From Nitrospira sp. (GTDB lineage Bacteria > Nitrospirota > Nitrospiria > Nitrospirales > Nitrospiraceae), in NCBI GenBank assembly GCA_018242685.1, contig JAFEBM010000015.1, positions 1-64,000 of the forward strand: DNA of 64,000 nucleotides. Reading direction: 5' to 3'. A program made the position numbers and the translations under genes. Position 1 is the first letter of the stretch. Each line of letters begins with the position of its first letter. Of this stretch, positions 23,302 through 59,814 are shown in pieces. A model generated the notes under the pieces. The model ran no database searches, had not been told where the DNA came from, and was given only the letters and a program-made list of their open reading frames with translations.

Positions 23302-24708
23302 ATGACCGTTCATGTGGATGAGATGAGGAAGATGTTCCCGACGAAGCCGCACTCTGTGGTGGAGGAACGAGAACACAATCCATATCTGAAGCGACAGGCG
23401 GGACGGGAATCGAACGCCCGCAGTTATCCAAGACGGCTGCCGTTGGCGCTCAGCAAAGCCAAGGGCATCTATGTACAGGATACCGACGAGCGGACGTACA
23501 TCGATTGTCTCGCCGGCGCCGGCGCGCTGACGTTGGGCCACAACCACCCCGTCGTATTGGACGCCATCCAGCGATTGCTGCAGGAAGGGGTCCCCTTCCA
23601 GACGTTGGATCTGACGACACCGGTGAAAGACCGCTTTGTCGATGCGCTCTTCGGCGCATTGCCGAAAGCGTTCGCAGAAGACGCGCGTATCCAGTTTTGC
23701 GGACCCTCCGGAGCCGATGCCGTTGAGGCTGCCGTCAAACTGGTGAAGACCGCGACCGGTCGGCGAACGATTCTGTCGTTCCACGGCGCCTATCACGGGA
23801 TGACACACGGCGGTTTGGCGCTCACCGGCCATCTGGAGCCGAAAGCTGCTGTGAGTGGTCTGATGCCGGATGTCCAGTTCCTTCCGTATCCGTACGATTA
23901 TCGTTGCCCGTTCGGCGTCGGCGGTGAGGAGGGGCATCGGCTGTCCAGCACCTATATCGAGCGGTTACTCGACGATCCGAACAGCGGTGTTGTGTCACCG
24001 GCTGGTGTGATCTTGGAAGTGGTTCAGGGTGAGGGCGGTGTGATTCCGTCACCTGATGCCTGGCTTCGGGACATTCGCCGGATTACCAAGGAACGCAACA
24101 TTCCATTGATCGTCGATGAGATTCAGACCGGTCTGGGACGCACCGGTTCGTTGTTTGCGTTCGAACGTGCCGGAATCATCCCCGACGTGGTGGTGCTGTC
24201 CAAGGCGATCGGAGGCGGTCTGCCGTTGAGCGTGGTGGTGTATCGAGTCGAACTGGATCAGTGGCAGCCGGGAGCGCATGCCGGGACGTTCCGCGGAAAC
24301 CAGATGGCCATGGCTGCGGGGGCGGCCACCATTGAATTCGTCCGAACCCATCGTCTCGATCAGCAAGCTCAGATCATGGGAGAGCGTCTTTTGTCGCATC
24401 TGCATCAGGCTCAGGCATCGTTACACAGTTTCGGCGACGTACGGGGGCGCGGTTTGATGATCGGTGTCGAGATTATCAATGCCTACGGACGTCCCGACGC
24501 TCAAGGAGCCTATCCCGCGGCTCCTGAGCTTGCGCGAAAGATTCAGTCGCATGCCCTCAATCGCGGTCTCATCCTCGAATTGGGCGGACGCAACGGCAGC
24601 GTTGTGCGATTTCTGTCGCCGCTCATCGTCACAGCTGAGGAAGTGGATACGATTGCGTCCATCTTCTGCGAAGCAGCTCGAGCCGCGGAGCAAGAGTCAC
24701 GTTTATGA
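23302..24708 (+). CDS. L-2,4-diaminobutyrate:2-oxoglutarate aminotransferase (PvdH/EctB-like)
   Basis: This is a class III PLP aminotransferase of 468 residues. LAGAGALTLGHNHP, FCGPSGADAVEAAVKL, FHGAYHGMTHG and DEIQTGLGRTG are the family blocks, and the PLP lysine is Lys301 in VLSKAIGGG. The length and the region after the start resemble PvdH. It converts aspartate semialdehyde to 2,4-diaminobutyrate (Dab). No ectA or ectC is nearby, so the Dab is for peptide synthesis, in agreement with four adenylation domains downstream carrying a Dab-like code. GAAGGAG precedes the ATG, and its stop overlaps the next start as ATGA. Confidence 0.9.
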   Translation: MTVHVDEMRKMFPTKPHSVVEEREHNPYLKRQAGRESNARSYPRRLPLALSKAKGIYVQDTDERTYIDCLAGAGALTLGHNHPVVLDAIQRLLQEGVPFQTLDLTTPVKDRFVDALFGALPKAFAEDARIQFCGPSGADAVEAAVKLVKTATGRRTILSFHGAYHGMTHGGLALTGHLEPKAAVSGLMPDVQFLPYPYDYRCPFGVGGEEGHRLSSTYIERLLDDPNSGVVSPAGVILEVVQGEGGVIPSPDAWLRDIRRITKERNIPLIVDEIQTGLGRTGSLFAFERAGIIPDVVVLSKAIGGGLPLSVVVYRVELDQWQPGAHAGTFRGNQMAMAAGAATIEFVRTHRLDQQAQIMGERLLSHLHQAQASLHSFGDVRGRGLMIGVEIINAYGRPDAQGAYPAAPELARKIQSHALNRGLILELGGRNGSVVRFLSPLIVTAEEVDTIASIFCEAARAAEQESRL

Positions 24709-28161: not shown

Positions 28162-28218
28162 CGGTGACGGCCACACTCACAGAACAATTCATCGTATTGA
28201 TGCATGTGGAGGAGTCTG

Positions 28219-29244
28219 ATGCACGCCGATCACAATAATACTGCGTCAACCTCCGTCGAGGAACCATGTGGGGAGACGGTCGGTCAGGCGGCTTGCCGGG
28301 TGAGCTGCTTGACTCCGGATACCCAACTTCCCCTCGTGGTCAGTCCCACAGATAAACATTCGTTGGCTGAATACCGAGACGCTATTAAGCAGATGGTGAG
28401 TACGCATCTTTCGACCGTCGGGGGATTGCTGTTTAGGGGATTTCCTATTGAATCGGCGACTGACTTCGAAACATTGGTCAAGATGCTCTCGCCTGCCTTG
28501 GCCTCCTACGAATTTGGATCGACGCCACGGTCGCAGGTCCACAATCAGATTTATACGTCGACGGAATATCCTCCCCATCAGCACATCCCCCTGCATAACG
28601 AACAAGCCTACACCACTGAATGGCCGATGAAAATTTGGTTTTATTGCGCGCAGGTATCGCCGGAAGGAGGCTATACGCCGATCGCCGACAGCCGCGAGGT
28701 GTATCGGCACATTCCAATCCGCATTCGAGAGCGCTTCCTCGCGGAGGGTGTGATGTATGTGCGGAACTACGGGAATGGGCTGGATGTCCCGTGGAACAAG
28801 GTGTTCAACACGATGGATCGCAGGGTCGTTGAACAATATTGCCGGTCAACCGGCATTGAGTACGAATGGAAGGCGGACGGAGAATTGCGTACCAGACAGG
28901 TCTGCCAAGCGGTCTCCGTCCATCCACGGACTCGGGAAACAGTCTGGTTCAATCAGGCTCATCTGTTCCATGTATCGAATCTAGAACCGGCCGTGAGAGA
29001 GGCACTGCTGTCCTTTGTCAATGAGGAAGATCTGCCTCGGCAGGCCTTCTACGGGGACGGGACACCGATCGAATCGACGGTGCTGGACGAAATCCGGGAC
29101 GTCTATCAATGCCATGCCGTCCAGTTCCCTTGGCAGAGGGGCGACGTGTTGATGTTGGACAATATGTTGGTGGCGCATGGGCGCACGCCGTTCAGGGGCC
29201 CGAGAGAAATTCTGGTAGCGATGGCCGAATCGAGCAAGAGCTGA
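28219..29244 (+). CDS. Free-standing SyrP/TauD-type Fe(II)/2-oxoglutarate beta-hydroxylase
   Basis: The product is 341 residues. The iron-binding triad is visible as His126-x-Glu128 (LHNEQAY) and His320 (LVAHGRTPF), with a conserved arginine region after it (GPREILVAM). The closest named relative by pattern is SyrP, which hydroxylates aspartate held on a carrier domain; related enzymes make beta-hydroxyaspartate in siderophores. Two Asp-coding modules lie downstream, and a second hydroxylase of the same family is fused to the synthetase ending at 52609. ATG 28219 is chosen over 28204 because GGAGG lies six bases before it. Confidence 0.85.
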   Translation: MHADHNNTASTSVEEPCGETVGQAACRVSCLTPDTQLPLVVSPTDKHSLAEYRDAIKQMVSTHLSTVGGLLFRGFPIESATDFETLVKMLSPALASYEFGSTPRSQVHNQIYTSTEYPPHQHIPLHNEQAYTTEWPMKIWFYCAQVSPEGGYTPIADSREVYRHIPIRIRERFLAEGVMYVRNYGNGLDVPWNKVFNTMDRRVVEQYCRSTGIEYEWKADGELRTRQVCQAVSVHPRTRETVWFNQAHLFHVSNLEPAVREALLSFVNEEDLPRQAFYGDGTPIESTVLDEIRDVYQCHAVQFPWQRGDVLMLDNMLVAHGRTPFRGPREILVAMAESSKS

Positions 29245-43714: not shown

Positions 43715-46700
43715 ATGAGAAAAAAAAAGGACATCGAGTCAATCCACTATCTCTCTCCGCTCCAGGAGGGACTGCTCTTCCATGCTGTGTCCGACACGAA
43801 CACGGATCCATATTTCACACAGACCGGTTTCGTCATCGAGGGAGAGCTGGATCTCGATCCGTTCGAGCAGGCATGGCAAAAGGTGATGGAACGTCATCCG
43901 ATCCTTCGAACCGGCTTCGTCTGGGACAGCGTCAAACAGCCTATGCAGGTTGCGCGGCGCGGCATGCGGGTCCCGCTGCAGATCCTTGACTGGCGGACCT
44001 GCAATGGCCGGCAGCGGGATGAAGCTTTGGCGCGGTTTCTGAGCGACGATCGTCGGAAGCCGTTCGATTTGCTGACGCCGCCCATGATGCGGCTCACACT
44101 GATCCGAATCGAAGACAATTGCTGGTATTTCATCAACAGCCACCACCATATCCTGTTGGACGGTTGGAGTGTGGCGCTGCTGCTCAAGGACGTCTTGACC
44201 TATTACGACGCACTGACGAATAAGCGGCTGCCGGTATTGTCACCTGTGAGGCCTTACTCAGAATATCTGAGCTGGCTGCAGAGGCGTAATCTGGATGCGG
44301 CTGAGACATTCTGGCGAACGAGCCTGACGGGTTTCACGACGCCGACCGCGCTGCCCCTGGAGTCGCCGCAATGCGTGGCTTTGGAAGAACTGAAATCCCT
44401 CCCGTACGCGGAGCAGGAAGTGCGGCTGTCGAAGGCAGAAGTCGAAACATTGACCGCTGCCGCCAAGCGCCATCGGCTCACCTTGAACACGTTGGTGCAA
44501 GGGGCGTGGTCGATCTTGTTGCACCGATGCACCGGGGATCGGGAGGTGCTTTTCGGCGCGACGGTCTCCGGCCGGCCGGCGGAGCTCCCCGGTTCGGATG
44601 TCATGGTCGGACTGTTCATCAATACGCTGCCGGTGCGGGTTTCCATCCCTCCCGACGCGAAGCTAGGGGACTGGCTTGGCTCGCTGCAGGAACAGAATAG
44701 CCTCCTGCGGCAATACGAATGGACGCCTCTGTCAAAAATCCAGCGCTGGAGCGATGTGCCGGGCGGTCAGCCGTTGTTCAACAGTATCGTTGTCTTCGAA
44801 AGCTATCCCGAAGACGAAAGCGATACGGATCAGCTCGGTTTGCGAATCACTCCTATGGCACCTCACTGGCAGGATGCCGAGTATGTCTTGACGGCAGGGC
44901 GCAACAACTACCCGTTATCACTGATGGTCGAGCCTGCTGCGCAAGTGCGGTTGATTCTCTCCTATGCACGTGAGCGGTTTGCACATAAAGACATCACGCG
45001 TCTCCTTGGTTACTACCGCACGTTATTGATGGCGATAGCGGAGCGGACAGAAATTCGTTTGGAGGAACTGTCTCCGCTGAGCGACGCGGAGCGAAGCCGC
45101 CTTCTGACGGACTGGAACCGCACCACGGTTCTCGTGGATGGAGCATGTGTCCACGAACGGATTGAGCGGGTGGCGCATGAACAGCCGGCTGCCGTGGCCG
45201 TCGTCTATGAGGGGGAGTCTTTGACCTATGGAGAACTAGACTCCCGAGTGGACCAGCTTGCGAGGTATTTACAGAAGCTCGCGGTCGGTCCTGACGTGCG
45301 GGTCGGTCTCTGTGTGGAGCGATCGCTCGACTTGATCGTCGGATTGCTTGGGGTGCTCAAGGCAGGCGGCGCGTATGTAGCGCTGGACCCGAAGCTTCCG
45401 AAAGAACGGTTGGCTTTTATGCTGTCGGACAGCGGCGCACGGGTGGTCCTCATGCAGGCCGCATCCGGCGAGCTGTTCCAGGAATCGGATGTGCGGCAAG
45501 TCTATCTGGATCGCGATTGGGAGAAAATCTCGACAGGAGCTTATCAGCCGCTGCAGCGGGACGTGCGACCTGAAAATTTAGCTTACGTCATCTACACCTC
45601 CGGTTCAACTGGACGACCAAAGGGCGTCGCCGTCGAACATCGTCAGGTCGTCAACTACGTGTCCGGGCTCCTGGCCCGCCTCTCACTCGATCAGAAGGCC
45701 AGTTTCGCGACCCTGTCCACGGTCGCGGCAGATCTCGGCAACACCTCGATCTTTGGTTCACTCTGTTCCGGTCGCACGCTTCACGTGCTGTCGGTCGATC
45801 GGGGGTTCGATCCCGATGCCGTCGCGGAGTACATGGCCACCAACCGGATCGACGTGATGAAAATCGTACCGAGCCATCTGGCAGGGCTGCTGGAAGCAGG
45901 ACGATCGGAGCAGGTGCTTCCACAGCGTTGCCTGATCCTCGGCGGCGAAGCAGTTCATAGCAGCCTTGTCGAACGGATCCGAGCGCTCGCACCGGACTGT
46001 GAGATCATCAACCATTACGGACCCACGGAAACGACGATCGGAGTGCTTACCCATCGAATCGAGGCGGAATTGAATCGGCACACGGTCATTCCCATCGGAC
46101 GGCCCTTGGCGAACAGCCAAGTCTTCATTTTGAATCCGGACGGTCAGCCGACGCCGGTCGGTGTTTCCGGCGAGTTATGTATCGGCGGTGATGGGCTGGC
46201 GAGGGGTTATCTCGATCGGCCGGACCTGACTGCGGAGCGGTTTGTGCCCAATCCGTTCAACGGGCGGGCCGGGGGGCGTCTGTACCGCACTGGTGATCGT
46301 GGGCGGTATCGACCGGATGGCACTGTCGAATTTCAAGGCCGCGTGGACAATCAAGTGAAGGTGCGGGGATTCCGAATCGAGTTGGGCGAAATCGAAACGC
46401 AGTTGCGGAACGATGGCCAAGTGAAGGACGCCGTGGTGGTCGTGCGCCCCGAGGCCGACGGCACGAAACAACTTGTCGCTTATGTCGCAGCCCCGGCCGA
46501 TCTTGATCTGGATTCGGTTCGATCCCGTCTCGCTGTCCATTTGCCGGACTATATGATTCCTTCGACCATTACCGTGCTGGAGGCACTTCCTCTGACTGCC
46601 AACGGCAAGATTGATCGAGCGGCGCTTCCCGACCCGGAACAGGCACAGACACCACGGAACGGTACCTACGTCGCGCCCCGGAGCGATATCGAAACGACGC

Positions 46701-49700
46701 TTGCCCAAATCTGGGCGGATGTCCTTCATCTGGATCGTGTGGGCATTCACGACAACTTCTTTTCGATCGGCGGCGATTCGATCCGCAGCCTTCAAGTCGT
46801 CGCGCGCGCACACAAGTCCGGCATCAAGTTGACGCCCAAACATCTATTCGAGCATCCGACTGTGGCGGCGGCTGCGGCCGTGGCGGCGACCGCGCGTGCT
46901 GAGGCTGCCGGGGGCTCCGTGACGAAGGATTATTCTTTGAGTGGGCTTGAACCGGCCGAGATCGAGGCCTTATTCCCTGACAGGAGCGCGATCGAAGATC
47001 TCTATCCATTGACCCCGATGCAGGAAGGCATGCTGTTCCATACGCTCTTGAATCCCGGTTCCGGCATGTATCTCATGCAGCAGCACTACACGTGGAACGG
47101 GCCCTTGAAACTCGACCGGCTCGTCGAGGCCTGGGGGCGGGTCATCGACCGGCACCCTATTCTGCGAACCGCCTACATTTGGAAAGATCTGAAGCGGCCG
47201 CTGCAGGTCGTACAGCGCCGAATCGATCTCAAAGAAGCCGTTTACGCGCTGGACTGGCGCGACTCTTCCGCTGCCGAGCAAAAGGACCGTCTTATCCGCA
47301 CGCTTGAGACGGAATTGGCCGAGGGATTCGACATGAGCCGGGCACCGCTCATGCGGATTCGATTGATCCGGACCGGCGAGGAGTCTTACCACATCGTCAG
47401 AAGCTTCCACCATATCTTGACCGACGACTGGTGCTTCTCGATTCTGATGATGGAAGTGTTGTCGTACTACGAGGCGTTGCTGGAAGGCCGCTCGATCGAC
47501 TTGCCGTCGCCGCGTCCCTATCGTGACTACATCGCCTGGCTTCAACGCCAGGACCTCGGCGCGGCCGAAACCTTTTGGCGCAAGGAGCTGGAGGGTTTCA
47601 GCGATCCGACCTCTCTCGGTGTCGAGCGCATATCGTCGCCGCGCCAGGAAGCGGTCTCCGAAGTCGGTGATGAATTCGGCGAGTTATCGGAACAGGTGAC
47701 TGAACGGCTGACCACGCTCGCTCAGCAACAGGGGCTGACGCTGAACACGTTCCTGCAGGGCGCGTGGGCGCTGCTGCTCAGCCGTTACAGCGACTCCAAC
47801 GATATCGTGATGGGCGTGACCGTTGCCGGGCGTCCGACGGAGCTCGAGGGCGTGGAGTCCATCGTGGGACTGTTCATCAACAGTTTGCCGTTGCGGGTAC
47901 AAATCACCCCGAGTGCTCCGGTGCTTGGATGGCTCAAGGGCCTGCTGGCAGCCAATTACCGTATCCGACAATACGAATATCCGCCGCTCGTGCAGATTCA
48001 ACAGTGGAGCGAGATTCCGAAAGGACAGGCGCTGTTCAAAAGCCTGGTCGTCTTCGAAAACGCGCCGGTCGATCCACGGCTTGGCGAGCAAGTCGGAGAG
48101 GTGAGTCTGGAGTTCGACCACGACCGTGTCCACACGAATTACCCGATGACGGTGGTCGCCTATCCCGGCCCGCGATTGGGCATGCGTCTGTCGTATGACC
48201 GGCGGTTGTTCGAGCCGGAGGCGGTGCGCCGAATGGTAGGACACCTCAGCCACCTGCTTGAAGCCATGGCGATGCAACCGGAGACGCGCCTCTGCGATCT
48301 GTCTCTTTTGAGTACTGAGGAACGGACGCAACTGCTTGTGGAATGGAATAGGACCACCGCCGAGCGGCCGGAAGAGAAAGGATTCGCCGAATTATTCGAG
48401 GTCCAGGTGAAGCGGACTCCGGCTGCGGTTGCGGCAATCGACGATGAGCGGAGCATCACCTATCAGGACTTGAATCGCGCCGCCAATCGCGTTGCTCATG
48501 CGTTGCGCCGGCGCGGCATCGGGCCGGACCGAATCGTGGCGCTGCTTCATACACGCGGTATCGACCTGTTGATTATGATTCTCGGCGTCTTGAAGGCCGG
48601 CGGCGCCTACCTGCCGCTGGATCCTCATCATCCGTCCGCGCGGGCGGCGCAGATTCTGGAAACCAGCCGTACCGCGCTGCTGCTGACGGTACGAGAGTAT
48701 GCAGCCTCGGCCGAGGCTGCTATCGCTGCCGCTCCAGAGTCCACGACGCCACTTGTTCTGTTAGATCTCTTGATGAAGGAGACAGGCGCCGACGACAACC
48801 CGCCGCGTCTGGGTACGTCCGCGAAACTGGCCTACGTCATTTTTACCTCCGGTTCGACCGGCGCCCCGAAGGGTGCGATGGTGGAAGAGCGGGGGATGGT
48901 CAACCATCTCCTCAGCAAGATTCCCGCGCTGAGCCTGTCTGAATCGGACGTCATCGCGCAGACCGCGTCGCACTGTTTCGACATCTCGGTCTGGCAGTTC
49001 CTGACGGGCCTACTCTGCGGCGCCTGCATCCGGATCCTCCCCGACGATCTCGTGCGCGATCCACAGCGGCTCCTCCGAGAAATCAAGCGGTCAGGAATTA
49101 CGGTGTGGGAAACGGTGCCGTCGCTCCTTGTCGCCGGACTGGATGGGCCGGTCGTACCGTTGTCTTCCCTGCGATGGCTGTTGGCGACGGGAGAAGCAGT
49201 GACGCCCGAGTTATGTCGGCTCTGGTTCAGCCGCTATCCATCGATTCCCTTGATGAATGCCTACGGTCCAGCGGAGTGTTCGGACGATGTTGCGGTGCAT
49301 GCGGTGACTGGTTCGCTTCCCGAGGGAGCGACCCACGTGCCGATCGGCCGGCCGATCCCTCATCTCCAGCTCTATGGGTTGGACGGGAACGGAGAACCGG
49401 TGCCTCTCGACGTGGCGGGTGAACTCTACATCGGCGGCATCGGTGTCGGGCGAGGCTATCTTAACGATCCTGCGAAGACCGCCTCTGCTTTCGTGCCTGA
49501 TCCGTTTGCAACCGAACCGGGCCTGCGTCTGTACCGCAGCGGCGATCTGGCGCGGTTTCGTTCCGACGGCACGCTGGAGTTTTTGGGACGGCGGGATCAT
49601 CAGGTCAAGATTCGCGGTTATCGCATTGAATTGGGAGAAATCGAAGCGCGAGTGGTTCAACATCCACAGGTGCAGGAAGCCGTCGTGACGGTCGAGGAAG

Positions 49701-52609
49701 ACCGGCCGGGAAACAAGAGACTGATTGCCTACGTTGTCAGTGAAAGTTGTGTACGCAACGCCGCAGCCATCCGATCGTTCGCGGCCGAAACGCTGCCGGA
49801 CTACATGGTTCCTTCCGTGGTGATGTTCCTGGACGCGCTGCCGCTGACGCCGAACGGGAAGATCGATCGGAAGGCCTTGCCGACACCGGGAGACGGTGAG
49901 CTATCGCCCCACGACGGTGCGCCCTGCTCCGCGGTTGAAGAGATTCTGGCCGGGATCTGGGCAGAAATTCTCGGGGTCAAGCATGTCGGTGTCCACGACA
50001 ACTTCTTCGAACTCGGAGGCCATTCGCTCCTCGCGACGCAGGTCGTGTCCCGGATCCGTACCTCGTTCCAAATCGAGCTGCCGCTTCGAAGCCTTTTCGA
50101 GGCCCCAACGGTCGAGGCTCTGAGTGTCGTTATCGAGCAGGCCGATTCCGGTCGAGAAGAGACGCCGTTGGTGCCACTTGCGCCGGCCGAACGGCGCGGA
50201 CCGCTCGCGCTGTCCTTCGCTCAGCAACGGCTGTGGTTTCTGTCGCAGATGGAACAGGAAGGCTGGTCCTACAACCTACCGTTTGCCCTACGGCTGTCCG
50301 GTGCGCTCGATCACGCCGCCTTGTTGCACAGTTTCGAGCGGGTGGTCGCCAGACACGACACGCTGAGGACCACATTCCACGAGAGCGACGGCGAACCGGT
50401 GCAAGTCATCGGCGCGACGAGAGACTTTGCTTTGCCGCTTGATGACCTGAGCGGGCTGCCGGGAGACCGGTGGGAGAAGGCAATACGTAAAGCCGCCTCA
50501 ATGGAGGTCCGGCGACCGTTTCTGTTGGATCAGGACCGACCCATTCGCGCACGGTTGCTCCGTCTGGCCGAGCGGGAACATGTCCTGCTCGTCACGCTTC
50601 ATCATATCGCCGCGGATGCTTGGTCGATGACATTATTGGCCAACGAGGTCGCGGTCTTCTATCAGGCCGAGATTGGACGGGCAGGTAATACGGCCGACGC
50701 TCTGCCGCCATTGTTGGTGCAGTATGCGGATTTTGCCCATTGGCAACGGCAGTGGCTGCAAGGACCGGTGTTGGACGCGCATCTGGCCTACTGGAAACAG
50801 CGATTGGGCGTCAACCCGCCGGTCTTGAAATTGCCGACGGACCGGCCGCGTCCCGCCGTGCAGTCGTTCGGGGGCGCTCGTCACCTCTTTGCCGTCCCTG
50901 ATGAGCACGCCGATCGACTGCGCGCGCTGAGCCGCAAACAGGGCGTGACCCTGTTCATGACGCTCTTGGCGGCGTTCAACACGCTGCTCTTTCGCACGAC
51001 CGGACAGGAAGACATCTTGATCGGCACCGACGTGGCCAACCGCAATCGTCAAGAGACCGAAGGCTTGGTGGGATTCTTCGTCAATCTCCTGCCGCTCCGC
51101 AGCAATCTCGGTGGCAATCCCACGTTTCTAGAGCTGCTGACCCAGGTGAGGCGGACGGCCTTGGAGGCCTATGCGCACCAAGACCTGCCGTTCGAAAAGA
51201 TCGTGGAAGCGCTGAAGCTCAAGCGCGATCTGGGAAGCAACCCGCTGGTTCAAGCGCTCCTGGTGCTGCAAAACGCGCCGCCGCCGTCCATGGAGTTGCC
51301 GGGGTTGGAAGTCGGCGCGCTTGAGTTTGAAAGCGAAGTCGCAAGGTTCGATCTCGGATTGTTCATGGAAGACGCCGAGGAAGGCCTGACCGGCCTCTGG
51401 AAATACAGTACGGATCTCTTTGATGCCTCCACAATCGCCTCCCTATCGGAACGGTTCGTGACGCTGCTCGGAAACGCAGCCGCCCATCCGGAGGCACAAT
51501 TGTCCGTGATCGAGATCCTGTCGCCTGCGGAAAAGGAGTCTGCCATGATCGAATCCAAGCAACGAGCGGAGAACAAGTTCAAGCGGTTCAAAAGCATTCA
51601 ACCGAAGGCGGTGCACCTTGCACAGCGAACCCTGGTCGAGCGGAGGTATCTCGAATCGGATCAGCCTCTGCCGCTGGTCTTGCAGCCTGCGGTCGAGGAC
51701 GTGGATCTGGCCGCCTGGGCGCAGGACAACCGGACGACAGTCGAACAGGCATTGTTCGCACACGGAGCCATCCTGTTCCGAGGGTTCGCTCTTAAGGGTG
51801 CCGAGGATTTCGAGCAAGTCGCTCAGGCCTTGTGCCCCTCACTATTCGGCGAATACGGTGATTTGCCGCGCGAGAAAGCCGGGCGCCACCTCTATGGATC
51901 CACACCCTATCCGGCCGACAAGACGATTCTCTTTCACAACGAAAGCTCTCATCTGCACCGCTGGCCGTTGAAACAATCGTTTTTTTGCGTGCAGGCGGCG
52001 CAAGAGGGCGGGGAGACGCCTATCGTGGACTGCCGGAAAATGTGCGAACGTCTGCGGCCTGAGCTTCGCGAAAAAATTGAAAAGCAGGCATTGATGTACG
52101 TGAGGAATTTCACGCCGGGATTCGACGTAAGCTGGCAGGGCTTTTTCCACACCGAAGACAAGGCTGCCGTCGAAGAGACGTGCCGGCAGCACGGTGTTGA
52201 ATGGGATTGGACGCTGGACGGAGGGCTACGGACCAGACAAATCTGTCCGGCGATCGTCAAGCATCCGAGAACCGGCGACCGGGTATTCTTCAACCAAATT
52301 CAACTGCATCACATTTCGTATCTGGAGCCGGCGGTCCGGAATTCTCTGGTCGATATGTTGGGCATCGAACGGGTGCCGCGCAACGTCTACTTCGGGGACG
52401 GCTCTCCGATCGATGACGAGACGGCGGCGGAAATCGGCGAGCTCTACGAGCGGACGTCGGTGCGGTTTCCTTGGCGGAAAGGAGATCTGCTCATGCTCGA
52501 TAACATGCTGGTGGCCCACGCCCGTTCGCCGTTCGTCGGTCCGCGGAAGATCGTCGTGGCCATGGGGGAGATGATCAATCAACGGGATGTGCATGCAGTG
52601 AGCGCGTAG
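43715..52609 (+). CDS. NRPS: C - A(Asp) - T - C - A(Dab) - T - C fused to a SyrP/TauD-type hydroxylase
   Basis: The product is 2964 residues. The first C domain (LSPLQEGLLFH, HHILLDG at 144) follows the epimerase of the previous protein and fits a D-donor type. A1 reads DLTKIGHIGK, an aspartate code, carrier Ser1022. The second C domain has HHILTDD at 1232 (Gly changed to Asp). A2 reads DIWELTADDK (Dab), carrier Ser2104. A third C domain follows (HHIAADA at 2296). From about 2620 to the end there is a Fe(II)/2-oxoglutarate hydroxylase with His2741-x-Glu2743 (FHNESS) and His2935 (VAHARSPF). The last C domain has no A-T partner in this protein; the module is completed by the next gene, whose first A domain also codes for Asp. 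The fused hydroxylase is therefore placed to act on that Asp. Confidence 0.93.
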   Translation: MRKKKDIESIHYLSPLQEGLLFHAVSDTNTDPYFTQTGFVIEGELDLDPFEQAWQKVMERHPILRTGFVWDSVKQPMQVARRGMRVPLQILDWRTCNGRQRDEALARFLSDDRRKPFDLLTPPMMRLTLIRIEDNCWYFINSHHHILLDGWSVALLLKDVLTYYDALTNKRLPVLSPVRPYSEYLSWLQRRNLDAAETFWRTSLTGFTTPTALPLESPQCVALEELKSLPYAEQEVRLSKAEVETLTAAAKRHRLTLNTLVQGAWSILLHRCTGDREVLFGATVSGRPAELPGSDVMVGLFINTLPVRVSIPPDAKLGDWLGSLQEQNSLLRQYEWTPLSKIQRWSDVPGGQPLFNSIVVFESYPEDESDTDQLGLRITPMAPHWQDAEYVLTAGRNNYPLSLMVEPAAQVRLILSYARERFAHKDITRLLGYYRTLLMAIAERTEIRLEELSPLSDAERSRLLTDWNRTTVLVDGACVHERIERVAHEQPAAVAVVYEGESLTYGELDSRVDQLARYLQKLAVGPDVRVGLCVERSLDLIVGLLGVLKAGGAYVALDPKLPKERLAFMLSDSGARVVLMQAASGELFQESDVRQVYLDRDWEKISTGAYQPLQRDVRPENLAYVIYTSGSTGRPKGVAVEHRQVVNYVSGLLARLSLDQKASFATLSTVAADLGNTSIFGSLCSGRTLHVLSVDRGFDPDAVAEYMATNRIDVMKIVPSHLAGLLEAGRSEQVLPQRCLILGGEAVHSSLVERIRALAPDCEIINHYGPTETTIGVLTHRIEAELNRHTVIPIGRPLANSQVFILNPDGQPTPVGVSGELCIGGDGLARGYLDRPDLTAERFVPNPFNGRAGGRLYRTGDRGRYRPDGTVEFQGRVDNQVKVRGFRIELGEIETQLRNDGQVKDAVVVVRPEADGTKQLVAYVAAPADLDLDSVRSRLAVHLPDYMIPSTITVLEALPLTANGKIDRAALPDPEQAQTPRNGTYVAPRSDIETTLAQIWADVLHLDRVGIHDNFFSIGGDSIRSLQVVARAHKSGIKLTPKHLFEHPTVAAAAAVAATARAEAAGGSVTKDYSLSGLEPAEIEALFPDRSAIEDLYPLTPMQEGMLFHTLLNPGSGMYLMQQHYTWNGPLKLDRLVEAWGRVIDRHPILRTAYIWKDLKRPLQVVQRRIDLKEAVYALDWRDSSAAEQKDRLIRTLETELAEGFDMSRAPLMRIRLIRTGEESYHIVRSFHHILTDDWCFSILMMEVLSYYEALLEGRSIDLPSPRPYRDYIAWLQRQDLGAAETFWRKELEGFSDPTSLGVERISSPRQEAVSEVGDEFGELSEQVTERLTTLAQQQGLTLNTFLQGAWALLLSRYSDSNDIVMGVTVAGRPTELEGVESIVGLFINSLPLRVQITPSAPVLGWLKGLLAANYRIRQYEYPPLVQIQQWSEIPKGQALFKSLVVFENAPVDPRLGEQVGEVSLEFDHDRVHTNYPMTVVAYPGPRLGMRLSYDRRLFEPEAVRRMVGHLSHLLEAMAMQPETRLCDLSLLSTEERTQLLVEWNRTTAERPEEKGFAELFEVQVKRTPAAVAAIDDERSITYQDLNRAANRVAHALRRRGIGPDRIVALLHTRGIDLLIMILGVLKAGGAYLPLDPHHPSARAAQILETSRTALLLTVREYAASAEAAIAAAPESTTPLVLLDLLMKETGADDNPPRLGTSAKLAYVIFTSGSTGAPKGAMVEERGMVNHLLSKIPALSLSESDVIAQTASHCFDISVWQFLTGLLCGACIRILPDDLVRDPQRLLREIKRSGITVWETVPSLLVAGLDGPVVPLSSLRWLLATGEAVTPELCRLWFSRYPSIPLMNAYGPAECSDDVAVHAVTGSLPEGATHVPIGRPIPHLQLYGLDGNGEPVPLDVAGELYIGGIGVGRGYLNDPAKTASAFVPDPFATEPGLRLYRSGDLARFRSDGTLEFLGRRDHQVKIRGYRIELGEIEARVVQHPQVQEAVVTVEEDRPGNKRLIAYVVSESCVRNAAAIRSFAAETLPDYMVPSVVMFLDALPLTPNGKIDRKALPTPGDGELSPHDGAPCSAVEEILAGIWAEILGVKHVGVHDNFFELGGHSLLATQVVSRIRTSFQIELPLRSLFEAPTVEALSVVIEQADSGREETPLVPLAPAERRGPLALSFAQQRLWFLSQMEQEGWSYNLPFALRLSGALDHAALLHSFERVVARHDTLRTTFHESDGEPVQVIGATRDFALPLDDLSGLPGDRWEKAIRKAASMEVRRPFLLDQDRPIRARLLRLAEREHVLLVTLHHIAADAWSMTLLANEVAVFYQAEIGRAGNTADALPPLLVQYADFAHWQRQWLQGPVLDAHLAYWKQRLGVNPPVLKLPTDRPRPAVQSFGGARHLFAVPDEHADRLRALSRKQGVTLFMTLLAAFNTLLFRTTGQEDILIGTDVANRNRQETEGLVGFFVNLLPLRSNLGGNPTFLELLTQVRRTALEAYAHQDLPFEKIVEALKLKRDLGSNPLVQALLVLQNAPPPSMELPGLEVGALEFESEVARFDLGLFMEDAEEGLTGLWKYSTDLFDASTIASLSERFVTLLGNAAAHPEAQLSVIEILSPAEKESAMIESKQRAENKFKRFKSIQPKAVHLAQRTLVERRYLESDQPLPLVLQPAVEDVDLAAWAQDNRTTVEQALFAHGAILFRGFALKGAEDFEQVAQALCPSLFGEYGDLPREKAGRHLYGSTPYPADKTILFHNESSHLHRWPLKQSFFCVQAAQEGGETPIVDCRKMCERLRPELREKIEKQALMYVRNFTPGFDVSWQGFFHTEDKAAVEETCRQHGVEWDWTLDGGLRTRQICPAIVKHPRTGDRVFFNQIQLHHISYLEPAVRNSLVDMLGIERVPRNVYFGDGSPIDDETAAEIGELYERTSVRFPWRKGDLLMLDNMLVAHARSPFVGPRKIVVAMGEMINQRDVHAVSA

Positions 52610-52614
52610 AAGCC

Positions 52615-55600
52615 ATGCAATCAAACGTTGATATTCAAGGATTCCGGCTTTCTCCCCAACAAAAGCGCCTGTGGGCGCTTCAGCAGACGTTCGGAACCGC
52701 CTGTGCGCAGGGAACGTTGGTGATCCGGGGCGCGCTGGACTGCGCCCGCCTCGAACGGGCTGTGGACGCTGCGGTGGCCAAGCACGAAGCGTTTCGAACC
52801 TTGTTCTGTAGAGAGTCAGGCGTAAAAGTTCCGTTGCAGGTGATCGCTGAGGAGAGCAAGCCCGCGTGGAAGACCATCGAGCTACAGGCGGAAGACTCGG
52901 CGACACAGGTGGCGAAGCGGAATGAGTTGCTGGAGGACGATCGCCGCCAAAGGATCGACTGGGAGCAGGGCCCCTTGGTCCGCTGCACCCTCTGCCGGCT
53001 GTCGGACCGCGAGCATTGGCTCCTCATCAGTCTTCCTGCCATGTGTGCCGATGCTCGGACGCTTCATAACTTAGCCGGGGAAATCGCCGCCGGTTACGGC
53101 GCCGTGGGACGGCATGAACCGGACGAGGAGCCGGTCCAGTACACGCAGTTTGCGGAATGGCAGAATGAGTTGCTCGCGGAGGAGGATGCGGCCAAGGGTC
53201 GGCAGTTCTGGCGAGAGGTGCTGGACGATCCGGCTCCGATTATCTTGCCATTCGAGCAAATGGGAGAAAAGACAGCCGGCTGGCGGACTGAAACTCTTGT
53301 CTGGAATCTGGATACAGAAGTCGTTGCATCGTTGCTGGCCCTATCCACACGGCATGAGACGCTGATCGAAGCGTTGATATTGGCGGCCTGGCAGACCGTG
53401 CTCTGCCGAGTGGGCGGCCGCCGAGAATATCTCATGGCTCTGCTTAGCGACGGGAGAAAGTACGACGAGCTGGATCGGGGGATGGGACTGTTTGCCAAAT
53501 GGGTTCCTCTACGGTGCCGGGTCGATCCGGACCAATCATTTCAGGAACTGGCTACTGAGGTCACGACCGATCAGCAGCACCTGCGTGAGTGGCAGGAGTA
53601 CTTCATGTGGGACAGCGCGGCGGAAGAGATCTGCTCTGCGGCGACGGAGTTGGTGGGATTTGAGTTTGAGACGGTGGAACCGCTCGCACATACCGTAGAC
53701 GTTGTCTTCTCATTTGAGCCGGCGGCTGTCCGGTTCGAACCGCTCAAGCTGATCTTAAGCTGTATGAGAAGGAATCAGTTGATTCAATTGCGTTTGCAGA
53801 CGGATCCTGGACTGGTTCATTCGGCGGCGCTTCCGATCCTAAGCGAGGCCTTGACTGCACTACTTACTGCCGCAGCAACGCAACCGGAGACCAGTGTCGG
53901 GCTGCTGCCCTTGCTGGGCGAATCGCAACGGCGCCGATTGCTGCAAGCAGGCCGCAGCGCTATCCATTCGCGCTCAGCCGGTCGATCCCTTCAGCACCTC
54001 TTCGAAAGCCAAGCAGCGGCGCGGCCCGATGCGATCACCGTTGTGTGCGGTGATTGCCGCCTGACCTATGCCGAGTTGAATGCCAAAGCCAACCAAATCG
54101 CGCATGGTCTGAACCGGATGGGAGTCGAGCGAGGCGATCTGGTGGGATTATGTGTCGAGCGCTCAGTCGAAATGGTGGCGGGATTGTTGGGCGTGCTCAA
54201 AGCCGGTGCGGCCTACGTACCGCTCGATCCGGACAATTCTCCAGCGCGTCTGACGTTCGAAGTCTCGCAGGCCGGGATCGCTGTCATCCTGACGCAGGAG
54301 AAATGGCGGCAGCGGCTGCCTGCCACCTCGACATCGGCGCGTTGTCTGGATTTCCACGACTGGACCTTCGCGGAGGAGCCATCACACAATCCAAATCAGT
54401 CGGTTCACCCGATGGAATTGGCCTATGTGATCTATACCTCCGGATCCACCGGCGTCCCGAAAGGCGTCGCCGTTACCCATCTGGGAGTGTTGAACTACAC
54501 AGACTTCATCCGTCGTGTCTTAGGGGCGGAGGCGGACCTGAATTATGCGACTGTTTCGACACTCGGCGCTGATCTCGGCAACACCGTGATCTTTGCTTCA
54601 CTCGCGTCAGGCGGATGCCTGCATGTAATTGGATACGACCGGGCCACCGACGGACGGAAGTTCGGGGACTATTGCGCGAAGCATCCGATCGACGTGCTGA
54701 AGATAGTGCCTGTCCATCTCCAGTCGTTGCTCGCTACGGCGGAGGGCTCCGAGGTGCTGCCCAGGCGGCTGCTTGTGCTCGGCGGGGATGTCTTGTCTCA
54801 CGCGCTTGCCGACCAAGTGACGGCGTCCGGCCGCTGCCGCTTGTTGAACCATTATGGGCCGACGGAGACCACGATCGGGTGTCTGACCTTCCCGGTCGAT
54901 CTGCATCATGAAGCCGCAATGCTTTCCGCAACTGTGCCGATCGGCTGGCCGATCGACAACGCGGAAGCCTATATTCTGGACGAGCAGCTCGATCCGGTGC
55001 CGGTCGGTGTGCCGGGTGAACTCTATCTCGGCGGGGCGGGGCTGGCACGTGGTTATCTTGGACGGCCCGATCTCACGGCCCAACGGTTCGTACCCCATCC
55101 TCTGACGTCTGAACCGGGGAACCGTCTCTACAAAACGGGTGATCTGGCTCGTGTTCTTCCTGACGGGATGATCGAGTTTCTCGGGCGAACCGATTTTCAG
55201 ATCAAGCTCCGGGGTTACCGCATTGAATTGGGCGAGATTGAGGCGCGTCTTATCGAACATCCCGGCATTCAACAAGCGGTGGTGACGGCGCGTGAGAACG
55301 GTGCCGGTGAAAAATATCTCGTGGCCTACATTGTGTCGCGTGATTCTTCCGCTGAGCCTGCGGGATGGCGTGAGTTTTTGAAGGAGTGTTTGCCGGATTA
55401 TATGATTCCCACCGCGCTGGTCTGTCTGCCGGCGCTGCCGTTGAATCAGAACGGAAAAGTCGATCGGGCGCTCCTGCCGGATCCTGAGGCTTATCTGGCG
55501 TCGAACCGCCGCTATGTAGCGCCGCGCAATCCGGCGGAAGAAATGTTGATAGGCATCTGGGAGACCATTCTGAAGCGGGACCGGATCGGGATTCGTGACA

Positions 55601-58600
55601 ACTTCTTCGATCTCGGCGGACATTCGCTGCTGGCGACGCAAGTGATGGCACGGGTTCGCTCGGCCTTTCGTGTGGAATTGCCGCTGCGGACCATCTTCGA
55701 GGCAACGACGGTGGCCCAACTGGCGGAAGCGGCTGAGAGGGCCAAGGCGGAAGGACATTATGGCGACCCTGCCCCGCCCATTGTTCCGTCGGTCCGCAGC
55801 GGACCCGTACCACTTTCGTTTGCCCAGCAGCGCTTGTGGGTTCTGACCCAATTGGAACCGGACAGCGTTGCATACAATATTCCCATCGCTTTGCGCGTCA
55901 AGGGCCCGCTCAATCTCGATGCGCTGCAACATAGTTTCAACGCAGTCGTTCATCGGCACGAGGCATTGCGCACGGTCTTTCAAACGGTTGCGGGTGTGCC
56001 GGTGCAGGTTGTGGCCGAGTCTGTGACCCTCTCCGTGCCTCTCGTCGACCTCCGGCATCTGGCGGCAGAGGCCAGGGAGGAAGCGGCCATGAGGTTGGCT
56101 ACAGTGGAGGCGCAGCGGCCGTTTGATCTTCGATACGGGCCGTTACTCCGTGTGAATCTCATGAGGATGGATGAAGGCGAACATGTGCTGCTGCTTACGT
56201 TGCACCACATCGTCTCCGATGCCTGGTCGGCGCAAGTCTTGGTCCGCGAGGTCACGTCGCTGTATGCCGCGTACGTCGCTGGAGAACGGTCCCCGTTGCC
56301 CGATCTCCCCTTGCAATATGCGGATTTTTCCCAATGGCAACATGCCTGGATGGCCGGCACAGTGCTGGAACGGGAATTGGCGTATTGGAAGACCGCTCTC
56401 GGTGGGGATCTGCCGATCTTGAACCTTCCGACCGACCGGTCGAGACCGGTCCTCCAATCATCGCGAGGGGCATTGGTGACGAGGCTTATGCCACGTGACA
56501 TCTCGAGCGCGGTCGCCGCGTTAGGCCGCCGGATGGACGCAACGCTCTACATGACGCTGCTGGCGGGATTCGTCCTATTGCTCCTTCGCTGGACGGGCCA
56601 GCGGGATCTGATCGTCGGAACGCCGATCGCGAATCGGACCCGCAAGGAACTGGAGTTGCTGATCGGATTTTTCGTGAACACCTTGGCCATCCGCACGCAG
56701 ATCCCAAAAGGTGCGACGGTTGCCGACGTGATCCGACGGGTGCGGACGTCTTGCCTGGAGGCCTACTCGCATCAAGACACGCCGTTCGAGAAATTGGTGG
56801 AAGTTCTTCAGCCGAAGCGGGATGTCGGGCGATCGCCGATCTTCCAGGTGATGTTCGACCTGCAAAACGCCCCTGCCGCTGAGTTGAATGTGTCCGATCT
56901 CGATTTCGCTCCGCTCGAAATCGAGAATACGGCGGCGAAGTTTGATTTGTCGATGACCGTGCAAGAGATGGAGACAGGGCTGTCTGTGTCCATCGAATAC
57001 AATAGCGATCTCTTTGATGAGGCGACGATCACAAGCATGCTGGGTCAGTACGAACGTCTTCTCGCGGGGATGGCGGCTGAGCCTCAGGGCGAGGCCGAGC
57101 GTATCTCTTTGCTGAGTCAGGAAGAGCGTGAGCACATCCTGTTGGGGGGGCGTGCGGTACCGATAACCGATCCTGTCGGATCCGTACATGAAATGATCGA
57201 GCGTCAAGCACAACGGATTCCAGACGCCACAGCGATACAGTGGGAAAATCGGACACTTTCCTATCGAGAATTGAATGCGAAGGCTAATCAACTGGCCAGA
57301 TACCTGCGCGGGCAGGGCATCGGACCGGAGCAGCGGGTGGGAATCTGCATGGAGCGGTGCCCTGAAATGGTCGTGGCACTCCTGGGGATTCTGAAGGCCG
57401 GCGGAGCCTACGTGCCGATCGATCCCAGTTATCCTGGCGACCGCCAGAAGAGGTTGGGGATTGATGCCGATCTGAGTCTGGTGGTGACCCACGGTTCCTG
57501 TATGGAGAATCGGGAAGGCTATCCGTTTACGATCCTGCCCTATGACCGTATCCAGAACGACGCGACGGTTCTCAGCCAGGACAATCTCGAATCACGCATA
57601 GCTCCGTATCAGGCCTGCTACATCATTCATACGTCCGGTTCGACAGGAAAGCCCAAGGGAGTGATCGTCTCGCACCAAGCCGTCTCGCTTCATGTGGCGG
57701 CGGCCGCGGCACAATACGGCATCCGCATGTCGGATCGGATTCTTCAATTTGCATCGTTGAGCTTCGATGTTGCAGCCGAAGAACTGCTGTGCGCGTTGTT
57801 TCGAGGGGCGACGATCGTGTTGCAGCCCTGCAGGCTATTCGAGACGATTCCCGCCTTTCTGGATTTTCTCCACCGAGAGCGTATCAGTGTTGCGGGGTTG
57901 CCGGCGTCATATTGGCAACAGTGGATGGCGGAAGCGGATGAACCGGGACGAGACATCCCGGACCACCTGCGGATGCTTATTGTCGGGAACGAAGCCGTCT
58001 CAGCGGAAGATCTCGCCGTCTGGAAAAAGAAAGCGGACAGCCGCGTCCGTTGGTTGAATGCCTATGGGCCCACGGAAGCCACCATTACGGCCACGACGTA
58101 CGAAGCCGATCGAGCGCACATCTCGACCGGAACGGGAATCGTTCCGATCGGCCAACCTCTTTCAGGGCGCTTGATCTATATCCTGGACGAAGCGCTCGAA
58201 CCGGTTCCGTTCGGCATGCCGGGCGAACTCTATGTCGGCGGAGACAATCTGGCACGTGGCTATCTCCATGGTCCCGCTCAGACCGCGGTCTCGTTCTTGC
58301 CAGATGCATTCCGTGGTACACCGGGCAGTCGAATGTACCGAACAGGAGATCGTGCCAGACTCCGTGCCGACAATGTGATCGAATTCCTTGGTCGAATCGA
58401 CGATCAAATCAAAGTGCGCGGGTTTCGGGTCGAGCCAGGCGAAATCGAGGCGGTATTGAGACGGCATCCGGATATTCAAGAGGCCGCCGTTGTCGTTCGA
58501 AAGAATCTTGAAGATCGTGACATGCTTGTGGCCTATGGCCTACTTCGATTGGGGCACAATGGTGAAAGTGCTTCTCTACGTCAATGGATTGGACGGTCGC

Positions 58601-59814
58601 TTCCCGGGTACATGGTGCCCTCGGTTGTTGTCGTACTCCATGACTTCCCTCGGACGGCAGGAGGAAAGGTCGACCGGTCCGCGCTTCCGGCGCCTGAATG
58701 GTCGACTGTCAATCGGCAGACGTATGTGGCTTCTCAGACGCCCTTGCAGAAGACGTTGGCGGACATCTGGTGCAAGGTGCTTGCGGTTGACCGGATCGGC
58801 ATCCATGACAACTTTTTCGATCTCGGCGGACATTCCCTGCTGGCCGTTCAGCTGCTCTCTCATGTGCAGAAAGTCGTCGAAACGCCGCTTTCCCTGATGG
58901 ACCTCTTTCAGTCGCCGACGGTGGAACGGTTGGCCCTATTGATCGAGAACGGCGGTCGAGAAAGCGAATCCGGAATGGTCTGTCTGCATAGCGGCGAGTC
59001 TCTCGCTCCACTCTACTGCTTTGATCCGACCGGCACGCATGTTCAGGCGTACAGGCCTCTCGCCGTTTCGCTCGAAGGCGATCGGCCGGTCTGGGGGCTC
59101 TCGCTCAGCCACATTTTTTTCGGCACGTGGCAGGAACTTTCGATTGAGGCCATCGCTCAACGGCATGTGCGCCTGATGCGTGAGCGGCAGCCAAAAGGAC
59201 CATACTATCTGGTGGGGTGGTCGAACGGCGGTGTACTGGCTGTCGCCGCTGCGCGGCAGTTGGAACAGTGGGGAGAACAGGTTGCATTCCTTGCTGTACT
59301 GGATACCCAGCCGGACATGGCGGTCTATGAGTCGGAGGATCCGACGCCGGTCGATGAAGTGTTGGCCTATATCAGGCGCGAATGTCAGCAGACGTTCAAT
59401 GCCATTCCGGAGAAAGTCCGTGATGAGTTTTGGAAACGGCTCGAGGAGCTTCCTGAAGATGGGAGGTTGGAGTATGCCATTCGTTGGGCACAAGAGCGGG
59501 ATTTCCTCTCGAGCGAGGAAGCCGCAGCGTCGATCGGCAGCCTCAAGATCGGTTATGCCTTGGCCAGAGCTGCGGCTCTTTTCATGAAATCTGTCCGGAG
59601 CTGTCCGATCCACAGTCCAGTCCACGCCTGGTGGACAACGAATACAATCGCGCGCCATGGAAGTGCTCCAATGGACTGGGGTCAGTACACGACCGGGGTC
59701 GTGTCGGTCGAAATGGTAGTCGGCGACCATATGGATGCAGTCCAGAGCATTCAAGTCCATCAGCAGATCGGTGAAATTCTGTCGCGACTGGACAGGGTTT
59801 CGCTGGGTCGTTGA
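52615..59814 (+). CDS. Terminal NRPS: interface-like C-superfamily domain - A(Asp) - T - C - A - T - TE
   Basis: The product is 2399 residues. The first domain (about 8-440, RLSPQQKRLWALQQ) has the condensation fold signature, but the catalytic HHxxxDG is PAMCADA at 141-147, so both histidines are lost. This is what is expected of the interface domains that accompany siderophore beta-hydroxylases. The next A domain reads DLTKVGHIGK (Asp), carrier Ser1004. Then come a normal C domain (HHIVSDA at 1197), an A domain with FDVAAEE and an unassigned code DVEGLVAITK, carrier Ser2074, and a thioesterase with Ser2203 in GWSNGG and a GDH near the end. The TE releases the finished chain, by hydrolysis or cyclisation. 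Confidence 0.93.
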   Translation: MQSNVDIQGFRLSPQQKRLWALQQTFGTACAQGTLVIRGALDCARLERAVDAAVAKHEAFRTLFCRESGVKVPLQVIAEESKPAWKTIELQAEDSATQVAKRNELLEDDRRQRIDWEQGPLVRCTLCRLSDREHWLLISLPAMCADARTLHNLAGEIAAGYGAVGRHEPDEEPVQYTQFAEWQNELLAEEDAAKGRQFWREVLDDPAPIILPFEQMGEKTAGWRTETLVWNLDTEVVASLLALSTRHETLIEALILAAWQTVLCRVGGRREYLMALLSDGRKYDELDRGMGLFAKWVPLRCRVDPDQSFQELATEVTTDQQHLREWQEYFMWDSAAEEICSAATELVGFEFETVEPLAHTVDVVFSFEPAAVRFEPLKLILSCMRRNQLIQLRLQTDPGLVHSAALPILSEALTALLTAAATQPETSVGLLPLLGESQRRRLLQAGRSAIHSRSAGRSLQHLFESQAAARPDAITVVCGDCRLTYAELNAKANQIAHGLNRMGVERGDLVGLCVERSVEMVAGLLGVLKAGAAYVPLDPDNSPARLTFEVSQAGIAVILTQEKWRQRLPATSTSARCLDFHDWTFAEEPSHNPNQSVHPMELAYVIYTSGSTGVPKGVAVTHLGVLNYTDFIRRVLGAEADLNYATVSTLGADLGNTVIFASLASGGCLHVIGYDRATDGRKFGDYCAKHPIDVLKIVPVHLQSLLATAEGSEVLPRRLLVLGGDVLSHALADQVTASGRCRLLNHYGPTETTIGCLTFPVDLHHEAAMLSATVPIGWPIDNAEAYILDEQLDPVPVGVPGELYLGGAGLARGYLGRPDLTAQRFVPHPLTSEPGNRLYKTGDLARVLPDGMIEFLGRTDFQIKLRGYRIELGEIEARLIEHPGIQQAVVTARENGAGEKYLVAYIVSRDSSAEPAGWREFLKECLPDYMIPTALVCLPALPLNQNGKVDRALLPDPEAYLASNRRYVAPRNPAEEMLIGIWETILKRDRIGIRDNFFDLGGHSLLATQVMARVRSAFRVELPLRTIFEATTVAQLAEAAERAKAEGHYGDPAPPIVPSVRSGPVPLSFAQQRLWVLTQLEPDSVAYNIPIALRVKGPLNLDALQHSFNAVVHRHEALRTVFQTVAGVPVQVVAESVTLSVPLVDLRHLAAEAREEAAMRLATVEAQRPFDLRYGPLLRVNLMRMDEGEHVLLLTLHHIVSDAWSAQVLVREVTSLYAAYVAGERSPLPDLPLQYADFSQWQHAWMAGTVLERELAYWKTALGGDLPILNLPTDRSRPVLQSSRGALVTRLMPRDISSAVAALGRRMDATLYMTLLAGFVLLLLRWTGQRDLIVGTPIANRTRKELELLIGFFVNTLAIRTQIPKGATVADVIRRVRTSCLEAYSHQDTPFEKLVEVLQPKRDVGRSPIFQVMFDLQNAPAAELNVSDLDFAPLEIENTAAKFDLSMTVQEMETGLSVSIEYNSDLFDEATITSMLGQYERLLAGMAAEPQGEAERISLLSQEEREHILLGGRAVPITDPVGSVHEMIERQAQRIPDATAIQWENRTLSYRELNAKANQLARYLRGQGIGPEQRVGICMERCPEMVVALLGILKAGGAYVPIDPSYPGDRQKRLGIDADLSLVVTHGSCMENREGYPFTILPYDRIQNDATVLSQDNLESRIAPYQACYIIHTSGSTGKPKGVIVSHQAVSLHVAAAAAQYGIRMSDRILQFASLSFDVAAEELLCALFRGATIVLQPCRLFETIPAFLDFLHRERISVAGLPASYWQQWMAEADEPGRDIPDHLRMLIVGNEAVSAEDLAVWKKKADSRVRWLNAYGPTEATITATTYEADRAHISTGTGIVPIGQPLSGRLIYILDEALEPVPFGMPGELYVGGDNLARGYLHGPAQTAVSFLPDAFRGTPGSRMYRTGDRARLRADNVIEFLGRIDDQIKVRGFRVEPGEIEAVLRRHPDIQEAAVVVRKNLEDRDMLVAYGLLRLGHNGESASLRQWIGRSLPGYMVPSVVVVLHDFPRTAGGKVDRSALPAPEWSTVNRQTYVASQTPLQKTLADIWCKVLAVDRIGIHDNFFDLGGHSLLAVQLLSHVQKVVETPLSLMDLFQSPTVERLALLIENGGRESESGMVCLHSGESLAPLYCFDPTGTHVQAYRPLAVSLEGDRPVWGLSLSHIFFGTWQELSIEAIAQRHVRLMRERQPKGPYYLVGWSNGGVLAVAAARQLEQWGEQVAFLAVLDTQPDMAVYESEDPTPVDEVLAYIRRECQQTFNAIPEKVRDEFWKRLEELPEDGRLEYAIRWAQERDFLSSEEAAASIGSLKIGYALARAAALFMKSVRSCPIHSPVHAWWTTNTIARHGSAPMDWGQYTTGVVSVEMVVGDHMDAVQSIQVHQQIGEILSRLDRVSLGR

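Follow-up and report, generated by a model that had tools for sequence, protein, structure and literature searches.

The window considered in this work, i.e., the whole stretch of 64,000 nucleotides (64 kb) at positions 1 to 64,000 of contig JAFEBM010000015.1 (assembly GCA_018242685.1, Nitrospira sp.), carries on its forward strand two adjacent nonribosomal peptide synthetase (NRPS) genes, whose products, here referred to as N3 and N4, meet at a putative site of aspartate (Asp) beta-hydroxylation. The original prediction was that a hydroxylase at the end of the first protein and an interface domain at the start of the second may form the hydroxylation complex at the protein junction itself. 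The features concerned are listed below; C, A, T, E and TE stand for condensation, adenylation, carrier, epimerization and thioesterase domains, and HMM for hidden Markov model.

43715..52609, + strand: NRPS N3, C-A(Asp)-T-C-A-T-C-hydroxylase, with the fused hydroxylase last (HMM architecture)
50186..51535, + strand: last C domain of N3, with an intact HHIAADA motif at 50600-50620
51575..51613, + strand: basic linker motif KFKRFKSIQPKAV between the C domain and the hydroxylase
51638..52606, + strand: fused Fe(II)/alpha-ketoglutarate Asp beta-hydroxylase domain (TauD/SyrP type)
51935-51943 (HNE) and 52517-52519 (codon of the distal His), + strand: metal triad HxE...H of the hydroxylase, both parts conserved
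52607..52614, + strand: N3/N4 protein junction, i.e., the stop codon TAG and five nucleotides (AAGCC) followed by ATG, with a docking tail on neither side
52615..59814, + strand: NRPS N4, interface-A(Asp)-T-C-A-T-TE (HMM architecture)
52615..53937, + strand: putative interface domain of condensation fold, with LPAMCADA replacing HHxxxDG (PAMCADA at 53035-53055)
54007..55563, + strand: first A domain of N4, code DLTKLGHIGK (Asp)
55501..55716, + strand: first T domain of N4 (HMM envelope)

The open reading frames of N3 and N4 encode 2964 and 2399 amino acids, respectively. Pfam detected three Condensation, two AMP-binding and two PP-binding domains and a terminal TauD domain (2658-2949, 1.5e-48) in N3, and two Condensation, two AMP-binding and two PP-binding domains and a Thioesterase in N4. 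The HHIAADA motif and the TauD match bear out the first claim of the original prediction, namely that the protein ending at 52609 closes with a C domain and a fused SyrP/TauD hydroxylase. The two histidines and the aspartate of that motif are invariant in 58 homologues, and this last C domain is expected to be the condensation domain for the Asp module on N4. DLTKLGHIGK is an exact Asp code, also present in the first A domain of N3 (A1), in agreement with the Asp-activating domain that had been proposed to follow the interface domain; the adjoining T domain should be the carrier of the Asp to be hydroxylated.

The protein starting at 52615 does open with a condensation-superfamily domain in which PAMCADA takes the place of HHxxxDG. 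Indeed, LPAMCADA aligns on the columns of the N3 motif HHIAADA, both histidines being lost and the Asp being kept, and HHxxxD is present at the same site in the other C domains of the window. Both histidines are absent from all of 114 related domains, which retain the motif Asp in 114/114 cases (consensus LPALCAD). Because of this conservation and of the pairing with a hydroxylase in 93/93 loci (see below), the loss of HH in the first domain of N4 is not a matter of chance.

The phylogenetic analysis is in agreement with this idea. Interface domains were labelled by position only (n=109) before a FastTree tree was built, in which they formed, together with five other HH-less N-terminal domains, one clade (Shimodaira-Hasegawa (SH) support 0.999) that contained no HH-bearing C domain. 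In an IQ-TREE analysis of a 76-row subset the interface clade was separated by a split with 100/100 support, with all the C and E domains tested falling outside; the trees took in C and E domains. The N4 domain thus does not group with the catalytic C domains, the phylogenetic outcome on which the original prediction depended. Its condensation fold and the retained motif Asp might suggest a degenerate yet working C domain, with the fused hydroxylase merely lying nearby. However, the absence of both histidines from all the relatives, the separate clade and the fact that N3 already ends with an intact C domain for the Asp of N4 make this explanation highly improbable.

The predicted model of a homologue of the interface domain shows a condensation fold, and its fold matches include the teicoplanin X domain (4tx2/4tx3). 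Like the interface domain, the glycopeptide X domain is a dead condensation-fold domain recruiting an oxygenase to a T-bound substrate, so that the first domain of N4 might be imagined as an X-like domain calling in another oxygenase. We give this possibility very little credit: the X domain motif is HRxxxDD (PMC11546977), its partner is a cytochrome P450 and it belongs to the terminal module, whereas N4 carries LPAMCADA and the conserved partner is a TauD enzyme; moreover, sequence similarity to X is lower than to ordinary C domains. Membership of the condensation superfamily without HH, a clade of its own, the position preceding an Asp A domain and a paired hydroxylase all support, at the sequence level, the assignment of this domain as an interface domain.

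As for the hydroxylase of N3, it clusters with fused enzymes of Nitrospirota, Pseudomonadota and Sorangium; in the hydroxylase tree a 38-row fused clade has an SH-like approximate likelihood ratio test (SH-aLRT) value of 96, and a TbH-like clade stands apart at 99. Among named hydroxylases, the closest ones come from Nitrospira sp. (91% identity), and a hydroxylase match at E <= 1e-30 is found in 22/296 genomes of the phylum (Nitrospirota). The TbH_Asp type (stand-alone, without an interface domain) was ruled out for the N3 enzyme, which is fused and interface-paired. Searching NCBIfam, no IBH_Asp or CyanoBH_Asp type family scored above the cut-off; the enzyme is probably of the interface type and IbH_Asp-like, the subtype being either IbH_Asp or CyanoBH_Asp. 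In the AlphaFold2 model of the N3 C-hydroxylase portion, the linker between the two domains consists of a helix followed by a low-confidence loop. A basic motif K-F/L-K-x-I-K-P/R-K, a pattern picked post hoc from data already seen, follows the C domain in 53/92 fused C-hydroxylase linkers and also occurs in 11/25 tails of C-ended proteins preceding a stand-alone hydroxylase; it is rare elsewhere (3/49 other C/E tails, 0/275 C-A linkers).

The same split was then surveyed in loci gathered from the phylum itself, plasmid records and named genome contigs, using HMM scans for C, hydroxylase, A and T domains. Ninety-seven fused C-hydroxylase proteins were found, 93 of which had visible downstream sequence, and in 93/93 of these loci (about 88 distinct ones once five known duplicates are removed) an HH-less condensation-type domain opens the next NRPS protein. 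The loci belong to Nitrospirota, Cyanobacteria, Proteobacteria, Myxococcota and other phyla, and the 64 in which all four domains are complete fall into 46 groups at 85% hydroxylase identity. The other N-terminal C-type domains of the surveyed loci are HH-bearing in 105/115 cases and HH-less in 10/115; the comparison of 93/93 with 10/115 gives a Fisher p of ~3e-48 without correction for phylogeny, a value that overstates independence because the loci share kinship. The A domain following the interface domain has an Asp code wherever it was read. Further survey added two more split cases (total 95), and no in-line fusion of hydroxylase and interface domain was found in these 95 fused cases. Thus, the facing of hydroxylase and interface domain at two protein ends, correctly noticed in the original prediction, recurs without exception in the fused-hydroxylase clade and is not a peculiarity of the Nitrospira locus. 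Since the survey recruited loci by similarity to fused hydroxylases, we extend the rule no further than this clade. Stand-alone hydroxylases differ, the next domain being an interface domain in 29 cases, a normal C domain in 15 and an A domain in four. One arrangement, from a Sorangium-centred phylum search, is unique in the survey, namely the fusion of a hydroxylase with a carrier domain (H-T).

It is worth comparing this organization with known systems. An IbH_Asp hydroxylase working with an interface domain was reportedly described by Reitz et al. 2019 (PNAS); the present case shares with it a fused TauD-type Asp hydroxylase and an HH-less condensation-superfamily domain preceding an Asp A domain, and differs in its occurrence in the Nitrospirota. 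The names IbH_Asp and interface domain are confirmed in PMC12971057 and PMC12230676, and antiSMASH 8 includes profiles for the hydroxylases as well as for the interface domains, with reference to Reitz et al. 2019 (PMC12230676). A 2026 survey counted 16 nonribosomal peptide metallophore regions in Nitrospirota (PMC12971057). According to a review, TauD domains are always found beside A domains selective for Asp, and their substrate is Asp bound to T; hydroxylation on the T domain has been described for cupriachelin (PMC8949500 in both cases). In potashchelin, the Asp of the adjacent module has been proposed as the substrate of a TauD domain fused to the C domain that ends PtcB (PMC7100376). 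Judging from their descriptions, potashchelin PtcB/PtcC, taiwachelin and cupriachelin all resemble our case in having TauD behind a C domain at a protein end (PMC7100376, PMC8949500), but the PtcB hydroxylase ends a loading protein and that of N3 an elongation protein.

The cyanochelin B synthetase of Leptolyngbya sp. NIES-3755 (BAU16013 // BAU16012, AP017310.1) shows the same split, with 17 nucleotides between the genes: C-hydroxylase ends the first protein and an HH-less domain-A(Asp)-T opens the second. The hydroxylases of the two systems are 60% identical, and the codes of the cyanochelin B beta-hydroxyaspartate (beta-OH-Asp) modules are DLTKLGHVGK and DLTKFGHVGK (DLTKLGHIGK in N4). The isolated product contains beta-OH-Asp, and the NRPS-fused hydroxylase has been placed before the L-threo-beta-OH-Asp module (PMC12628792). 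Unlike the Nitrospira locus, this is a cyanobacterial plasmid cluster, and its stand-alone hydroxylase CcsK faces an interface domain, whereas the one starting at 28204 in the window (see below) faces a normal C domain. The kind of system is therefore already known, and the Nitrospira locus is a well-formed further example of it.

On the whole, this locus of the Nitrospira lineage very probably encodes part of a lipopeptide siderophore synthetase, namely a module for interface-dependent Asp beta-hydroxylation that is divided at the usual place. According to the scenario we propose, the A domain of N4 would load Asp on its own T domain, and the Asp thioester on T would be presented to the hydroxylase by the interface domain, i.e., a condensation domain of the same chain that is catalytically dead. 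The hydroxylase would reach this thioester from the end of N3 on a helix and a loose linker. Following the rule published for the fused hydroxylases (cited in PMC12628792), beta-hydroxylation is predicted to be 3S, and to give the L-threo product because an E domain is missing from the Asp module of N4. The upstream peptide would then be joined to the hydroxylated Asp by the last C domain of N3. Of these elements, the loading, the target and the dead catalytic site can be derived from the sequence, and the timing, the stereochemistry and the docking are inferred. A complete interface-type Asp hydroxylation module can hence be placed in a genome of the Nitrospira lineage (nitrite oxidisers), in which siderophores are little described.

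A further question is whether, as originally suggested, the hydroxylation complex is formed by the protein junction. The median number of residues after the last domain is 2 in hydroxylase-ended proteins, in comparison with 37.5 and 34 in T-ended and C/E-ended proteins, respectively, that precede another C-type start; interface domains begin about 8-9 residues past the likely Met. Within the window, the N1/N2 and N2/N3 junctions bear docking-peptide-like tails and N3/N4 does not. About 90 natural examples are thus available in which the boundary between hydroxylase and interface domain is a protein boundary without docking tails. This absence suggests that the contact between the two domains may also link the proteins, i.e., that the pair might double as a docking system aligning the proteins and positioning the substrate, an extension of the module reading that we hold tentatively, at somewhat below even chances, and with which the lack of in-line fusions also agrees. 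The stronger form of this idea, in which the break is obligatory and the non-covalent contact is an inter-protein docking device coupling hydroxylation to hand-over, seems rather unlikely to us. In the literature examined we did not find a statement of a universal hydroxylase // interface protein break with missing tails, although one may perhaps be present in Reitz et al. 2019.

Several data do not support a direct contact of this kind. Since no natural in-line fusion was found, AlphaFold2 was run on an artificial tether, i.e., a homologous locus (L009) whose hydroxylase and interface genes lie in the same frame, with the single TAA between them read as Gly; rows from plasmid records were left out of the alignment. 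The two domains were well folded (predicted local distance difference test, pLDDT, 92), but the linker was unordered and the predicted template modelling score (pTM) was 0.64; the control, C-hydroxylase from N3, gave 0.57. Neither value can be taken as confident docking because both lie near 0.58-0.66, the range that we estimate for two domains that fold well without being placed. Furthermore, distance (mirror-tree) correlations indicate that the C, hydroxylase, interface and A domains coevolve as a cassette, with no excess between hydroxylase and interface domain. In some loci, several of them cyanobacterial, 0.5-3.3 kb of other sequence lies between the C-hydroxylase and interface genes, and in five Acidobacteria loci stand-alone hydroxylases of the fused clade do not adjoin an interface domain. 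Finally, the upstream C domain may instead be the docking site, for the interface, the A or the T domain. The part of the original prediction concerning the complex is thus partly supported: conserved adjacency and missing tails fit a junction that may itself be the hydroxylation complex, whereas the two domains were not confidently placed in the predicted model. If the two proteins were indeed joined by the hydroxylase-interface contact, this would be a natural site at which synthetases could be linked or exchanged along with a hydroxylation step, and the role of the interface domain could be tested there directly.

The loci with intervening sequence are L042, where a methyltransferase gene lies between, L074, L085, L086, L092, L094 and L099. 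In the Acidobacteriota loci (L101, L104, L109, L117 and L122) the hydroxylase is followed by a normal C domain; two of these loci, L109 and L117, also have an interface-A-T protein upstream of the hydroxylase, separated from it by other sequence.

A second hydroxylase is encoded in the window:

28204..29244, + strand: stand-alone TauD hydroxylase, TbH-like, followed by a normal C domain

This enzyme falls in the clade whose members face a normal C domain or an A domain, and it probably pairs with the other Asp module, that of N3 A1. The identity of the two Asp codes might also suggest that the fused hydroxylase targets the Asp of N3 module 1 and not that of N4. This appears improbable, given that the stand-alone enzyme is available for that module and that the surveyed fused enzymes precede an interface-A module with, wherever read, an Asp code. 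The stand-alone hydroxylase and the Asp code of N3 A1 suggest two beta-OH-Asp residues per siderophore, possibly of different stereochemistry.

By sequence reading, the window also contains TonB receptors, a FecI-like sigma factor, a fatty-acyl ligase and polyketide synthase genes, which fit a lipopeptide siderophore. An aminotransferase resembling diaminobutyrate (Dab) aminotransferase is encoded at 23302-24708, and the A domains of 29109-52609 include four codes that are almost the same (DIWEPGADDK type) and may stand for Dab, and one Ser-like code.

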